From Pseudorhizobium pelagicum (GTDB taxonomy: Bacteria; Pseudomonadota; Alphaproteobacteria; Rhizobiales; Rhizobiaceae), in assembly GCA_000722615.1 (NCBI GenBank), contig JOKI01000003.1, positions 154,448 through 218,447 of the forward strand: a DNA stretch of 64,000 bases. Direction: 5' to 3'. How positions within the stretch are numbered: position 1 is the stretch's first letter; every line of letters begins with the position of its first letter. Of the stretch, positions 45,730 to 50,529 are shown piece after piece. The notes under the pieces were generated by a model. It was not told the origin of the DNA. It worked only from the letters and a program-made list of their open reading frames with translations, and did no database searches. Position numbers and translations under genes: made by a program.

Positions 45730-46041
45730 TTAAGCCAAGATGTCCGTGATGCGGACAACCGTGTGATGCTGGCGATGGCCGCGAATCCGCTTGGAATTCT
45801 GCCGGCGACGCTTCTTGAAGGACAGAACCTTCTTGCCACGGTTATGTTCGACCACTTCGGCCTTGACCGTCGCGCCCGAGACGAAGGGGGCGCCGAACTT
45901 GGCATCCGCACCGACGCCGATGACGAGGATTTCGTTGAATTCGATCGTCGTGCCGGCTTCAGCGTCGAGCTTCTCTATGGTAACCACATCGTTGGCCGCA
46001 ACGCGGTACTGCTTACCGCCGGTCTTGATGACTGCGAACAT
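45730..46041 (-). CDS. rplU: 50S ribosomal protein L21
   Basis: A 103-residue ribosomal protein beginning [20 protein letters not shown] and ending in [22 protein letters not shown], the RNA-binding tail of L21. It carries no C-terminal extension, unlike some alphaproteobacterial L21 proteins. The start follows AAAGGATAAC. The operon promoter lies about 170 bp upstream, leaving a long untranslated leader. Confidence 0.98.
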
Positions 46042-46272: not shown

Positions 46273-46301
46273 CTTGCCAGCCCCTCCAACCTTCGCTATG
46301 A
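46273..46301 (+). promoter_or_regulatory. Ancestral tRNA-Ser promoter, now driving only a tRNA stub
   Basis: CTTGCC (46273-46278), a 17-bp spacer and CTATGA (46296-46301) fit the rhizobial promoter pattern. The -10 is inside the 60-bp repeat; the -35 is not. The equivalent place at the right repeat reads ATCGCC (49950-49955), so the -35 differs between the two copies. Confidence 0.5.
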
Positions 46302-46352
46302 GACAGCCCGCGCCGAACAGCGCCGACCAGACCCGCGGAGAGGTGGCTGAGT
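46293..46352 (+). repeat. 60-bp direct repeat, left copy (attL-like)
   Basis: It is identical over 60 bp to 49970-50029. It contains the CTATGA -10 element, the tRNA 5' leader and GGAGAGGTGGCTGAGT, the first 16 nt of tRNA-Ser. Identity stops abruptly: TTCG follows here, GGTC in the intact tRNA. Confidence 0.9.
46337..46352 (+). pseudogene. tRNA-Ser 5' fragment (16 nt)
   Basis: GGAGAGGTGGCTGAGT equals the acceptor stem 5' strand and the start of the D arm of the intact tRNA-Ser at 50014. The rest of the gene is missing, so it cannot fold. Confidence 0.85.
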
Positions 46353-46453
46353 TTCGACAGCAACCTGTCCACACAGCAGCTGCCACGATCGCCTGAGTCA
46401 CTAAGAATGGCCATTGGGTGATGTCGATCTATGTGCAGAACGCCTCCGTTGCC

Positions 46454-47374
46454 TCACCGGTCCCGTGTTCTTCCAGTAGGAACGAGCGAAAATATCTGAA
46501 TTGCAGCGAGTAGGAACGAAAACAGGACAGCTAGTGCGACAAGCATCGGGCTTGACGACAGCGTGTCAATCCAATCGGGCCGGAAGACTGCGGCTTTCGA
46601 CAGCCCGTAATGTTTTATCCTGACAGCAACGGGTCCCCGCTCAGACAAGAGCGCGACGCCAACGCCGGACTCGTCTTCGGGAGCCGGCGTTATATGCCCG
46701 TAGCTCAATACGTCTGGCGTCTCGCTCACCAAATCAACGGTTGCACCAAGTTTGAAGCTGCCGCTTTTTACAACTTCCGTGACGTCGCGAAAAAAGGACG
46801 TCGCTAGCCCTGACTGATGGGCTTCCCAGGTCCCGCCGATCAGGTAATCCTTGCTGCCAGAGGCAATCGCTCCACCCAATCGTGCCACGCCCTGGAAGGT
46901 CAAGGCTCCATGTCCTCGCCAGGTATCCGCCGGGATTACGATCAACGACCCCTCCGGTAATCCTGCGGTGTTACCGGCTAGGGTCTGGACCACAAACTCT
47001 CCCTGTCCATTTCTGGTGAAACGTATCGTTGTATCTGCGCTCCAGTCGATGACGGCATCTTCAACCACTTCTCTGTTATAGAGTGACAGAGAACAAGGTC
47101 CGCTGGTGTCGGGCTGCTTTGCCCGGAAATTCGGCGTCAGCAGTAATCTGCAGATTGTTCCTTTCTCGACTACCCAATCATTCAACTGCCCCTTGAATGT
47201 GATCTCCCCGCCCCACGTCGTTGCTTGTATGCTTATGGTTCGGATGTTGGACATCGTGCTCCAAGTTACTACGACGCACAGTCCCATCAATCCAGCGAGC
47301 ATGAGGCCGCGGCCTTGACCCCTTCGAACCAGCGACAGCAAGCGGTATCGGCTGAGAAGCGATTGCAAGGTCAT
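46454..47374 (-). CDS. Membrane-anchored protein of unknown function (island gene A)
   Basis: A 306-residue protein with an N-terminal transmembrane helix (about 24-42, GLMLAGLMGLCVVVTW) and a C-terminal one (about 275-297, MLVALAVLFSFLLAAIQIF). Between them is a mainly beta-rich domain of about 230 residues, probably periplasmic, with two Cys (TICRLL, GPCSL). No family is recognised. Its start overlaps the stop of the next upstream gene by 4 bp (ATGA), so the two are co-expressed. Codon use is less GC-biased than in the housekeeping genes beside the island. Confidence 0.65.
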   Translation of the reverse strand: MTLQSLLSRYRLLSLVRRGQGRGLMLAGLMGLCVVVTWSTMSNIRTISIQATTWGGEITFKGQLNDWVVEKGTICRLLLTPNFRAKQPDTSGPCSLSLYNREVVEDAVIDWSADTTIRFTRNGQGEFVVQTLAGNTAGLPEGSLIVIPADTWRGHGALTFQGVARLGGAIASGSKDYLIGGTWEAHQSGLATSFFRDVTEVVKSGSFKLGATVDLVSETPDVLSYGHITPAPEDESGVGVALLSERGPVAVRIKHYGLSKAAVFRPDWIDTLSSSPMLVALAVLFSFLLAAIQIFSLVPTGRTRDR

Positions 47375-48078
47375 TCCGAGGCCGAAGGAAACCAGATCTC
47401 TAGCGCAGTAGGCTTCGAAGGCTTACCCCCGACTACGCGATAAATTTCAACCTGGGTTTGACCGGCGAGACCCTCAGCCTGCAAGTTGCACTTCGTGTCA
47501 AAGGCAGTCCCGCCTCCCGCTACCACTCTCTTGCAGAGGACTGGTGCCGGTTGATCGCCCACGTAGGCAAAGACGCTATCGGCGCGGAACGAGTTCAGCA
47601 CGATGTCAACGGAGCTGGCCTGATCAGAATTCCAGAGCGCTATCGTTTTTACCGCACCCTCTTGCTTTCCGCATTCTCCATGCGACACCAGGACGCCGAT
47701 ACCATCTTCGGGCAGAGAACGTAGAAGTTCGCCGTGTTTGGTAGGAAACGGCAGCTCAGCAGCTCCTCCTGACCAACCAACAGGGACAGAATAAGGACCG
47801 ATCGCTTCATATAGACCATCAGCGGACACAACTTTTGCGCAAACGGTTTGACCGCCCCAATGGCTGGGAATGTAGCTCGACAAAGTCAAATCTTGGTCTG
47901 ACGCGTTACGCACTTGCACACCGATAACCACAGCACCGGCGATAAGCGCTCCGTCCCTCACAACTTCATTGAGCTCTTCTAACGCAAGTGTCATCTTCTG
48001 ATTGTCTGCAGCAGAAGCCGGGCGGTCCGCCAACAGCAGAGGAAGCAACAGCGAGATGATTATGAGACGTCCTGCCAT
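47371..48078 (-). CDS. Exported protein of unknown function (island gene B)
   Basis: A 235-residue protein with a signal peptide (GRLIIISLLLPLLLADRPASA-AD). The mature part is predicted beta-rich (ALIAGAVVIGVQVRNASDQDLTLS, SVDIVLNSFRADSVFAYVG) with four Cys (TVCAKV, GECGK, VLCKRV, TKCNL) that could form two disulfides. AGGAAA precedes the ATG. Its 5' end overlaps the divergent protease gene by about 20 bp. I recognise no domain; coupling with gene A suggests a periplasmic partner of that membrane protein. Confidence 0.65.
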   Translation of the reverse strand: MAGRLIIISLLLPLLLADRPASAADNQKMTLALEELNEVVRDGALIAGAVVIGVQVRNASDQDLTLSSYIPSHWGGQTVCAKVVSADGLYEAIGPYSVPVGWSGGAAELPFPTKHGELLRSLPEDGIGVLVSHGECGKQEGAVKTIALWNSDQASSVDIVLNSFRADSVFAYVGDQPAPVLCKRVVAGGGTAFDTKCNLQAEGLAGQTQVEIYRVVGGKPSKPTALEIWFPSASE

Positions 48079-49129
48079 TTTAGGTTTCCTGGTGCATATT
48101 ATTCTTTGGATACTCTATCCTTCCCTCGGTCTTTCACAAACGGTTTCCATCCAAAATGGTTTAGGTGAATACGGCTTCGGCTGGATGTTCGGCCGGAATG
48201 GGGCATGCTACGTGGTAATGCCGAAACACGTGGCCGGTCCATTTCCGCGCGTGACTGTTAGCACCTCTGCGCCTGTTGAAAGTGCTTCGGCGACAGTCGT
48301 GGCTCCGTTTTGGAACGGGATTGATCTGGCGCTGGGGATTGCCCGAGGGGGTCTCCTTGACCGCTGCACGTCAACCCTCGACGATTTGGAGGAAACTGGA
48401 GCCGGCTTGAACGCCATGCACGGGGAGCTAGTTCGATTGTCGCCCAGCGGCGAAATGACCCGCAACAGAATCCGTTTTGCTGACAGGGATTATCTTTCTT
48501 TCACTGGGTATCTCGATTCAGGTCAGGCTTCGATCGCTCAGGGGACATCAGGAGCATTTGTATTCGCTGATGGTCGACCGATTGGAATGGCAATAACCTC
48601 CGATGATCCGGCTAGAGGTTTATTCATGCGTTCCGGTGAAATTCTTATACATGTTCATCGGTTTCTTGATGAACAAGGTGGGGCATATCTGCCAGCGCCC
48701 CCTTCAGCGGAGGAAGGTGAGAACCACTCAAACGGAAACGCTCTGCCGCTTCGCTTTATTGAGGCAAGTGTCCCGGCCATTAACCCTCAGTTTGCACCCG
48801 AAAACATGGTTGAAGAAGGTCGTTTCATCTTTGGAACCCAGCGCGTCATGCGCTTCGTCTTCGGTTTCGACGAGCCGACGGCGGTCTCACGTATCGTGAT
48901 GCAGTCGACAACGACAGAGAATCAAACGAAGCCAAAGGACGTCATCCTTCGATGGTCAGTTGATAGTAAACGTGAGCACTTTCGCGAACTGCAAAGGGGG
49001 GAGATGGGACCAGATGGGGTGTTTGATAGTGGCCAAATGGCCGGCAGAAACATTCGCTATCTCGAAATAATCGCGCTGAACACCTGGGGAGACGGCGACG
49101 TCGTGATCGATCAGGTCACCGCCTACTGA
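48056..49129 (+). CDS. Exported trypsin-like serine protease with C-terminal discoidin-like domain (island gene C)
   Basis: A 357-residue protein. The signal peptide (residues 1-28; ILGFLVHIILWILYPSLGLS-QT) leads to a chymotrypsin-fold domain: His58 in VVMPKHVAG, Asp90 in NGIDLALGIA and Ser165 in AQGTSGAFVF fall in the right order and spacing for a catalytic triad, though the Ser motif is GTSGA rather than GDSGG. Residues about 255-357 are a beta-rich domain with TAVSRIVMQSTTTEN and IRYLEIIALNTWGDG, like F5/8-type carbohydrate- or ligand-binding modules. Starts at 48056 and 48062 are possible; AGAGGAAG precedes 48056. The triad is inferred by eye. Confidence 0.7.
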   Translation: MIMRRPAILGFLVHIILWILYPSLGLSQTVSIQNGLGEYGFGWMFGRNGACYVVMPKHVAGPFPRVTVSTSAPVESASATVVAPFWNGIDLALGIARGGLLDRCTSTLDDLEETGAGLNAMHGELVRLSPSGEMTRNRIRFADRDYLSFTGYLDSGQASIAQGTSGAFVFADGRPIGMAITSDDPARGLFMRSGEILIHVHRFLDEQGGAYLPAPPSAEEGENHSNGNALPLRFIEASVPAINPQFAPENMVEEGRFIFGTQRVMRFVFGFDEPTAVSRIVMQSTTTENQTKPKDVILRWSVDSKREHFRELQRGEMGPDGVFDSGQMAGRNIRYLEIIALNTWGDGDVVIDQVTAY

Positions 49130-49138
49130 TCCGCCACA

Positions 49139-49756
49139 TCAGTCGATGAGCTGGACCGTGAACGGGACAGTTTCATCAACCTGGTATACGGTGCCCGATC
49201 CTTCCAAAGTGCCAGTATCGGAAAGGACAGCCCGACCATTGAAACGCCGCGGAGTCAAAAATATGCCGTCACTATTGACGGTTATAAAGCAATTGTTTTT
49301 GTCAATCGAGCTTGCATAACACTTGTGATCGGTCAAAAAAGGTCCGACCGGGACTCGCCAATACCCTGTTCCGTTATCAAGGGTGCCACTATATTCTCTG
49401 GTTATGCTGCTTGCGAAGTCCGAATCCTTCACTGCGCTCCCATCGAATTTCATTGAAAGAATAGGGGCTGTGGCCAAGAATCCTTCGAATGCTGCACGCT
49501 TCACTGTGGCGTTCGGAGACAATAGACCGAATTCTAACGCCATGCGCCGCAAGCTCTCGTCGCCACTTTCCAGCATGATTGTCATTGCTGAAAGGCTGCG
49601 TTGCGGGTCCGGGTCATTTAGTAGAGCCTGATATGGGTTTAGGTCGTTTATCTGCTTGTCGACCATCTTAGTTATATCTTCCGGAGATAGGCTCTGCGCA
49701 ACGGTCGTTTCGCCGAACGCTAGAATGGCGGTCGCCAGAAAATAAACCAGTTTCAT
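49139..49756 (-). CDS. Exported protein of unknown function (island gene D)
   Basis: A 205-residue protein with a signal peptide (MKLVYFLATAILAFGETTVA-QS). A helical segment (about 22-105; EDITKMVDKQINDLNPYQALL, SLSAMTIMLESGDESLRRMALEFGL) resembles a HEAT-like repeat. It is followed by a beta-rich half with two Cys (HKCYAS, NNCFIT) and a terminal VDETVPFTVQLID. GGGAGGAG precedes the ATG at 49756, which decides the start over a longer frame. It is convergent with the protease gene, 9 bp apart. No family is recognised. Confidence 0.65.
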   Translation of the reverse strand: MKLVYFLATAILAFGETTVAQSLSPEDITKMVDKQINDLNPYQALLNDPDPQRSLSAMTIMLESGDESLRRMALEFGLLSPNATVKRAAFEGFLATAPILSMKFDGSAVKDSDFASSITREYSGTLDNGTGYWRVPVGPFLTDHKCYASSIDKNNCFITVNSDGIFLTPRRFNGRAVLSDTGTLEGSGTVYQVDETVPFTVQLID

Positions 49757-49969
49757 ACTAAACTCCTCCCTTAGCTTCTTCAAAGCGGGGGAATGTCCCC
49801 CCACGCGATTATGTTTAGAGACCCCGATGGGTTTTGCAAAGAATTTCAACCCTGGCGTAGGCAATGAGTGAATGGCTGGGGCTTTGAATCGCACCGCTAA
49901 TGGGCGGATTGAGGCACGCTTCAGCCACACTGCCGGTGCCGAGACGCAAATCGCCAGCCCCGACAATCA

Positions 49970-50029
49970 TCGCTATGAGACAGCCCGCGCCGAACAGCGC
50001 CGACCAGACCCGCGGAGAGGTGGCTGAGT
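49970..50029 (+). repeat. 60-bp direct repeat, right copy (attR-like)
   Basis: It is identical to 46293-46352 and runs into the intact tRNA-Ser, of which it supplies the first 16 nt and the promoter -10. Confidence 0.9.
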
Positions 50030-50103
50030 GGTCGAAAGCACCGCACTCGAAATGCGGCATACGGGCAACCGTATCGTGGGTTCGAATCCCACCCTCTCCG
50101 CCA
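50014..50103 (+). tRNA. tRNA-Ser (anticodon CGA)
   Basis: A 90-nt serine tRNA with encoded CCA. The acceptor stem GGAGAGG pairs with CCTCTCC, the discriminator is G, the anticodon loop CTCGAAA lies between CCGCA and TGCGG, a long variable arm (TACGGGCAACCGTA) is typical of tRNA-Ser, and the T arm reads GTGGGTTCGAATCCCAC. It decodes UCG. Confidence 0.97.
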
Positions 50104-50529
50104 TGGTCTCGTGTGCCTGACCCGAACACCCAGCTACATTTCTTCCAAAGACATAGGCGAAAGCCTCGTGCCGGACGGGTTGGCGGTGTTCTTCTTGGCT
50201 CCTCTGAGGAACGTCTCCATCTGCCGAAATCTTCCGGGAGCCCAGCCTCGACACGCCGTGCTGATGGCGCCGACTTATCGTGTGGTCTCACCATGTGATG
50301 CTGAGGTCGAGTCGCCTCGACTGGTGACGCCGGGAATCAACGAAGTGCCGAGGTGTTCTTGCTGCGCTCCGCCGTCCTCGCCACGGGCCGGGATACTTCT
50401 TTGTTGTTCGCGAGAGGTCACATCTTGCTGTCCGTTCAAGGAACCTTAAGGCAGTCTTTCTAGTCCATGCTTCGCCTATTTACGGGGCGCGGTGAAGTCG
50501 ACATACTCGCGGCATCAGTGAGGTTGGAC
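50104..50529 (+). other. Intergenic region after tRNA-Ser
   Basis: About 425 bp without a supportable gene. It contains a short hairpin GTCGAG/CTCGAC and scattered GGAAC words without good -10 partners. I see no terminator with a T-run for the tRNA and no clear promoter for the GGDEF gene. Confidence 0.5.

Follow-up and report, generated by a model that had tools for sequence, protein, structure and literature searches.

Organization of the locus

We have examined a 3.7-kilobase (kb) segment beside the tRNA-Ser(CGA) gene of Pseudorhizobium pelagicum, in a 64,000-nucleotide (nt) stretch of contig JOKI01000003.1 (assembly GCA_000722615.1, positions 154,448 to 218,447 of the forward strand) that is called the window here and supplies all coordinates. 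An exact 60-base-pair (bp) direct repeat, 46293 to 46352 and 49970 to 50029, brackets the segment and spans the -10 box, the leader and nt 1 to 16 of tRNA-Ser(CGA) (50014 to 50103). We consider it probable that the insert is the integrase-less right-hand remnant of a Rhizobiaceae island family that targets tRNA-Ser(CGA), with the native-side tRNA gene truncated and the far-side copy supplying the tRNA. The locus is laid out as follows.

45730 to 46041, minus strand: rplU, host flank (PF00829, E value 1.1e-38), which adjoins tRNA-Ser(CGA) in relatives
46276 to 46352, plus strand: left copy of the repeat, with native promoter, leader and tRNA nt 1 to 16 (weak similarity to 46362, nt 27), 297 bp from rplU as in relatives
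46353 to 46453, no strand: left junction DNA, in which local alignments with four left arms of the family (score 18 to 21) gave no recognizable arm
46454 to 47374, minus strand: orfA, 306 amino acids, an open reading frame (ORF) without a match in family searches
47371 to 48078, minus strand: orfB, 235 amino acids, an ORF without a match in family searches
48056 to 49129, plus strand: orfC, a putative secreted trypsin-like serine protease with an extra C-terminal region (H57, D89 and S164, numbered from the codon at 48059)
49139 to 49756, minus strand: orfD, 205 amino acids, an ORF without a relevant family match
49913 to 49929, plus strand: GGCAC[AG]-N5-GCCACA, the family's right-arm motif as a pair with 11-bp spacing; by motif and arm-stretch scores these are likely arm sites for the integrase
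49953 to 50013, plus strand: promoter (-35 TCGCCA) and leader, presumably element-borne to judge from the repeat and from relatives
50014 to 50103, plus strand: intact tRNA-Ser(CGA), 64.1 bits, its 5' part presumably the element's and its 3' part presumably the host's

An earlier note, made from the letters of the window, had described the 60-bp repeat and the features that it covers, and our repeat search found it exactly so. With mismatches allowed, the repeat extends over 77 bp (46276 to 46352 and 49953 to 50029; 95% identity) with a start-to-start spacing of 3677 bp, and the runner-up families of direct repeats near the insert reach 16 to 25 nt at 75 to 82%. In the left copy the exact match ends at tRNA nt 16, with a weak blastn similarity that reaches nt 27. 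The two copies have the -10 box and leader in common and differ in the spacer and, as had been noticed before, in the -35 box, which is TTGCCA on the left and TCGCCA on the right, both 17 bp from TATGAG. The rplU gene is on the opposite strand, 235 bp from the left promoter, and four ORFs fill the insert. The proposed A/T-richness of the insert stands when its G+C content (49 to 58% in 500-bp windows) is set against the flanks away from rplU (about 60 to 69%); the contrast is weaker on the rplU side, where the flank has 56 to 59%. No PF00589 integrase was found on the window's contig, in agreement with the earlier note, and seven are encoded elsewhere in the same genome.

The segment is an insertion

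The earlier note had proposed integration, to be examined by aligning the interval between rplU and the tRNA gene across relatives. When 57 same-genus genomes were searched with the leader and tRNA, 55 had a match at 1e-20, and in 49 of the 54 genomes with loci the distance from rplU to tRNA-Ser(CGA) was an uninterrupted 291 to 352 bp; the corresponding distances in the window are 297 bp for the left copy and 3974 bp for the right. The adjacency was not seen in the other five (G006, G008, G017, G031 and G064): in G008 the tRNA adjoins an rplU that is cut off at the start of a contig, and in the rest either rplU is located elsewhere or the sequence around the tRNA is too short for it to appear. 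Two genomes, G021 and G079, had no tRNA match; in G079 the rplU contig breaks off within the leader, as expected for an assembly break at a repeat. The 3.7-kb segment is an insertion at tRNA-Ser(CGA). An old vertical duplication is ruled out because relatives keep the interval uninterrupted, and the family-wide occurrence of insert and repeats, by which the earlier note would have recognized such a duplication, was not found.

Intact islands and their integrase

In six relatives (G004, G010, G028, G069, G072 and G080), two direct copies of tRNA-Ser(CGA) lie 7.3 to 20.5 kb apart, the first adjoining rplU and the tRNA full at both ends; G029 was left out of this count, its two copies being on different contigs. 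A tyrosine integrase is encoded between the copies in all six. These integrases are orthologous, with pairwise identities of 84.9 to 96.9%, apart from one pair that reads 80.4% owing to an aligned extended start; that of G072 matches just to amino acid 292 of 330, and its gene is probably damaged. A further orthologue occurs in G079, and remnants are present in G008 (83% over 187 amino acids) and on contig C1 of the window's own genome (67% over 42 amino acids, about 4 kb past a tRNA-Ser(CGA) copy). The earlier note had taken the insert to be a possible remnant and had pointed to relatives with larger inserts as the place to look for an integrase; such relatives exist, at the same tRNA, and the insert does look like a remnant.

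The repeat begins at or just inside the -35 box and extends beyond the tRNA 3' end in five of the six islands, the exception being G004, where it begins near the -10 box. Three of the six copy pairs (G010, G069 and G072) are identical over the promoter-tRNA unit; the others differ by one base in the promoter spacer (G028), in the leader (G080), or in the leader and variable arm (G004).

The integrase is found well beyond the genus, in 42 of 394 family genomes and 30 of 109 genera (E value 1e-60). We fetched 20 of the 45 listed integrase places (the best 21 by score, minus G307; 67 to 86% identity), and ARAGORN placed a tRNA-Ser(CGA) gene 1.2 to 6.4 kb upstream of the integrase, on the same strand, in 18 of these 20 loci. 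A second full copy lies downstream in seven. Among the fetched loci, L187 has two damaged tRNA copies, and L190 has downstream only tRNA nt 28 to 89, the classical 3' fragment form. On pRL10, a conjugative plasmid of Rhizobium ruizarguesonis, the integrase (80%) is flanked by two tRNA-Ser(CGA) genes at a distance of 10.1 kb from each other, of which the left is degenerate (37.4 versus 62.0 bits). A Shinella oryzae megaplasmid carries half an integrase (91%), with a 3' tRNA fragment on one side and on the other a leader-bearing tRNA, also damaged, that falls under the Rfam gathering score. Viral contigs yielded relatives of the integrase at just 28 to 37% identity (five loci).

Arm motifs link the insert to the islands

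A left half-site, G[GC]CAC[AG], was present 78 to 96 nt past the rplU-side tRNA in 17 of 18 family loci and in all nine other copies (those of the six genus islands, pRL10, the C1 copy of the window's own genome, and G006), compared with none of 43 single-copy control sites. A strict left-arm pattern, in which the second half was fixed as well, had failed, with matches at 1 of the 18 family loci, none of the nine other copies and none of the 43 controls, and gave way to this half-site test. On the other side, a right half-site precedes the far-side copy in 18 of 18 cases, the window included, versus 2 of 48 control sites, and a right-arm pair 11 bp apart occurs at 7 of 18 far-side copies versus 0 of 48 controls. 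The pair at 49913 to 49929 is the sole one in the 64 kb, with 0.19 expected. When the right arms of G028, G080 and G008, taken without the leader, were aligned with both strands of the whole window, each had its best match at the insert's right end (scores of 39, 32 and 25, versus next best scores of 26, 23 and 23), and an 87-bp alignment between the window and the G008 remnant spans both arm and promoter. On these comparisons the right end of the insert is assigned to the tRNA-Ser(CGA) island family, and the arm motifs would be bound by the integrase. In L180 and L185, a left-arm-like GGGCCAC site also follows the second tRNA, as if islands stood in tandem.

The junction also bears on the idea that ectopic homologous recombination between leader-tRNA copies brought in the cargo and the far-side tRNA, with no integrase acting here. 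Over the stretch common to them, from ATGAGACAG on, the genome's three leader copies do not differ, and the identical pairs in three of the six intact islands make exchange between copies probable; however, both the junction position and the arm motif match those of integrase-bearing islands at the same site in relatives, and we regard this origin as very improbable.

Proposed site of exchange and origin of the right-hand tRNA

Several loci indicate where the element and the host gene would be exchanged. In L190 the common segment runs from tRNA nt 28 to the 3' end (62 nt); the pRL10 copies differ solely in nt 1 to 28 plus one acceptor position; the left copy of L187 is damaged 5' of about nt 28; and at the left end of the Shinella element just the last nucleotides of the tRNA remain. 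All four fit an exchange somewhere between nt 28 and the tRNA 3' end. The crossover position that G004 and G080 suggest is tentative, since the type of variable arm is not constant within the clade. Seven of the 49 relatives (L038, L041, L059, L060, L061, L063 and L064) have a different tRNA-Ser variable arm, of the GTGCC type, and leaders that follow the clade together with variable arms that differ suggest that parts of the tRNA have been swapped between strains.

We propose that an intact member of the family has a gene for a tyrosine integrase and that its own attachment site includes a whole tRNA-Ser(CGA) gene, in most cases together with promoter and leader. Integration would recombine the native tRNA with the element copy at some point from about nt 28 to the 3' end, and its outcome would be full tRNA genes at both island ends. 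In the window, the native-side copy would since have lost everything from about nt 16 to 27 on, together with the left arm and the integrase, presumably by deletion at the native side. The intact gene at 50014 to 50103 would then be largely the element's copy, and of the native tRNA there would remain the promoter and the first 16 to 27 nt. The left copy indeed keeps the share that this model allots to the host, from the promoter to about nt 27, without the share allotted to the element.

The earlier note had instead placed the attachment site at the 5' end of the tRNA gene. The window on its own shows exactly a 5'-end repeat, and 5' sites do exist: they account for 159 of 3919 islands in the Islander set (PMC4383910) and for 9 of 88 in Sinorhizobium meliloti (PMC11476347). 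Nevertheless, the right end of the insert bears the arm motif of a family that duplicates the whole tRNA gene, and the L190 fragment comprises nt 28 to 89, so that a 5'-end site seems very unlikely. The "split 5' end" of that account is most plausibly the host's share of the native gene that has remained in place. Its suggestion that the incoming DNA supplied a replacement upstream region needs amendment, in that a complete promoter-plus-tRNA gene would have been brought in and not an upstream segment only.

A second possibility is that integration never rebuilt the native tRNA: exchange would occur at a short core near nt 16 to 28, and the broken gene would be complemented by the element's copy, as in tRNA-dependent lysogeny. 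Such a mechanism has been demonstrated in mycobacteriophages (PMC10865867), and the left similarity fades at nt 16 to 27, close to the start of the L190 core at nt 28. Against this, the six intact genus relatives rebuild a full tRNA on the rplU side, and the left arm that would be expected beside the core is absent from the window, which means that something was lost. We consider this route unlikely, if somewhat less so than the other two alternatives.

Several points weigh against a right-hand remnant of the island family, the reading that we favor. The left and right leaders are identical though leaders vary between strains, so that recent transfer or gene conversion is needed. The arm patterns were defined after viewing these very sequences, and at least one arm pair appeared in 18 of 100 shuffles of the window; the evidence is therefore the position of the pair and not its presence. 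The margin of the G008 arm is narrow (25 versus 23), and the window retains neither integrase nor left arm. Nine of the 18 tRNA-bearing integrase loci had no second copy or fragment in the fetched stretch; the contig ended early in two of them, and 15.9 to 19.5 kb past the tRNA was covered in seven, for which larger islands or losses must be assumed. Finally, the four genes of the window were found in no intact island of the family, and homologous blocks lie away from tRNA genes.

Possible takeover of the host tRNA

A search of the window's own genome with the leader and tRNA gave six matches, comprising the intact gene, the C1 copy, the left remnant, and serine tRNAs with anticodons GCU, UGA and GGA. 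The C1 copy of tRNA-Ser(CGA) scores 47.5 bits, compared with 64.1 for the intact gene, and has a disturbed T arm. Since the C1 copy and the left remnant are both damaged, 50014 to 50103 is the only undamaged tRNA-Ser(CGA) gene found in the 62-contig assembly. Among serine codons, UCG is the most frequent in 24 window ORFs (232 of 621; the ORFs were picked by G+C content at the third codon position and not curated). The cell presumably depends on 50014 to 50103, which would be transcribed from the element's promoter; tRNA-Ser(UGA) might partly read UCG. With the native copy truncated, the far-side copy would supply tRNA-Ser(CGA), and loss of the island would remove the tRNA. This suggests a possible route by which an element becomes indispensable: the native tRNA decays, and the element's copy may be the sole one left.

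We also considered whether the C1 copy could be the left half that the element in the window lacks. This was unsupported, both loci carrying the leader and the tRNA 5' end, and the C1 copy may be a separate remnant. The C1 region (L047, 4626 to 18108) holds the damaged tRNA copy and the integrase fragment among large genes; judged by eye, these resemble a DNA methylase and helicases, perhaps a defense region.

Relationship to known integrating elements

Islands in tRNA genes, 5' sites, and element-borne tRNAs that replace a host tRNA are already known. The tRNA-Ser(CGA) islands differ in that the replacement tRNA gene, usually with its promoter, would belong to the attachment site, which leaves a complete gene at either end of an intact island. 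Our literature search returned no title or abstract opening that described a tRNA-Ser(CGA) island family, and we limit the statement to those titles and openings.

Islands of the Islander class likewise have an internal tyrosine integrase, direct repeats, a tRNA target and empty sites in relatives; unlike them, as that class is outlined in the source, the tRNA-Ser(CGA) islands end in full tRNA genes on both sides, most with a promoter (PMC4383910). Islander is described there as seeking one tRNA plus a displaced fragment and discarding matches within a full-length tRNA gene (PMC4383910). Islands with complete tRNA genes at both ends would evade such searches, and this integration route may be undercounted.

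In tRNA-dependent lysogeny, as summarized in the source, the element's tRNA is of the same isotype, has its own promoter and offsets the loss of the host tRNA, which is a shared feature; there, however, the core is about 10 bp, the tRNA is apart from attP, and integration breaks the host tRNA (PMC10865867). The tRNA appears to be part of the attachment site in the tRNA-Ser(CGA) islands, and intact islands leave two full genes. We did not meet so short a core among them, L190 having 62 nt in common and the others the whole gene. The host tRNA is broken in the window, whereas it is full in the six intact relatives.

Islands and prophages of S. meliloti are similarly reported to add tRNA genes or to replace an inactivated one, but Ser(CGA) is not among the tRNAs listed in the available part of that report, nor is a promoter-plus-tRNA repeat described in it (PMC11476347). 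The pTN3-like archaeal integrases offer another parallel in that the element replaces the 5' part of the tRNA and its promoter; in that system, by the source's outline, the 5' half serves as attB, and the tRNA is transcribed from the integrase promoter (PMC8371274). In the tRNA-Ser(CGA) islands the core would begin at about nt 28, and the promoter that the element carries is that of a tRNA gene. A 5'-half core, as in the pTN3-like and the Islander 5' class, would fit the window repeat alone; it does not fit the relatives. Tycheposons, in the outline given by a secondary source, are tRNA-bordered cargo elements with their own recombinase type (PMC10872708).

With its own family the window shares an insert at tRNA-Ser(CGA) that is absent from empty sites and a right-arm motif beside the element-side copy; it lacks an integrase between the copies and a left arm after a full rplU-side tRNA. 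As no integrase is present in the window, we call the insert a remnant and not an active member.

Cargo genes

The four cargo genes gave no useful match in Pfam, PADLOC, NCBIfam or PHROGs (NCBIfam yielded one meaningless weak hit for orfD, and PADLOC models no family at an E value of 0.1), nor did orfC in a PDB profile comparison. The orfC residues H57, D89 and S164 are invariant in five homologues, consistent with a putative trypsin-like protease. The block of orfA, orfB, orfC and orfD is conserved in Roseovarius sp. ZX-A-9 (45, 51, 60 and 55%), in a Rhodobacteraceae metagenome-assembled genome (38, 39, 44 and 42%), and in an IMG/VR contig (34, 37, 46 and 56%), where it is flanked by a tape-measure piece on one side and a minor tail gene on the other. 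Homologues of orfA, orfC and orfD lie close together, at 23 to 30% identity, in three of 297 family genomes besides the window's own; orfD had two further weak matches, with stops. No tRNA was found near the homologous blocks, and ten proteins of homologous loci gave two subthreshold matches to domains of unknown function in Pfam.

A PADLOC scan of ten proteins from the six intact islands gave restriction or restriction-modification matches in G004, G010, G028, G072 and G080; one G069 protein matches UvrD helicases of the GajB type, and one G028 protein had a weak match at best. Two G069 proteins are IS21-like by Pfam, and one of these also matches a DrmD model. Because the intact islands carry restriction or helicase-nuclease genes, the four-gene cluster of the window is perhaps a defense system by association, and it is a testable candidate for a new one. 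More tentatively still, and with the odds in our view against so broad a scheme, Rhizobiaceae-wide defense islands with a promoter-plus-tRNA-Ser(CGA) attachment site could become the sole source of this tRNA for the host and lock themselves in; the window would be a captured end state, and its protease cluster, versions of which occur in distant Alphaproteobacteria and amid phage tail genes, an undescribed antiphage system.

Two minor observations concern the surroundings of these tRNA genes. The G010 island has a tRNA-Tyr(GTA) gene with a modest score of 43.7 bits near its left end (L037, 16771 to 16844). In several relatives an insertion sequence with an rve-type transposase, presumably IS481-like, starts about 22 to 24 nt past the tRNA (L009, 209 to 1456; the tRNA-Ser(CGA) 3' side in L023, L033, L045 and L055; weaker in L066), and positions 50101 to 50190 of the window are seemingly a decayed end of this insertion sequence (local score of 56 over 90 bp).

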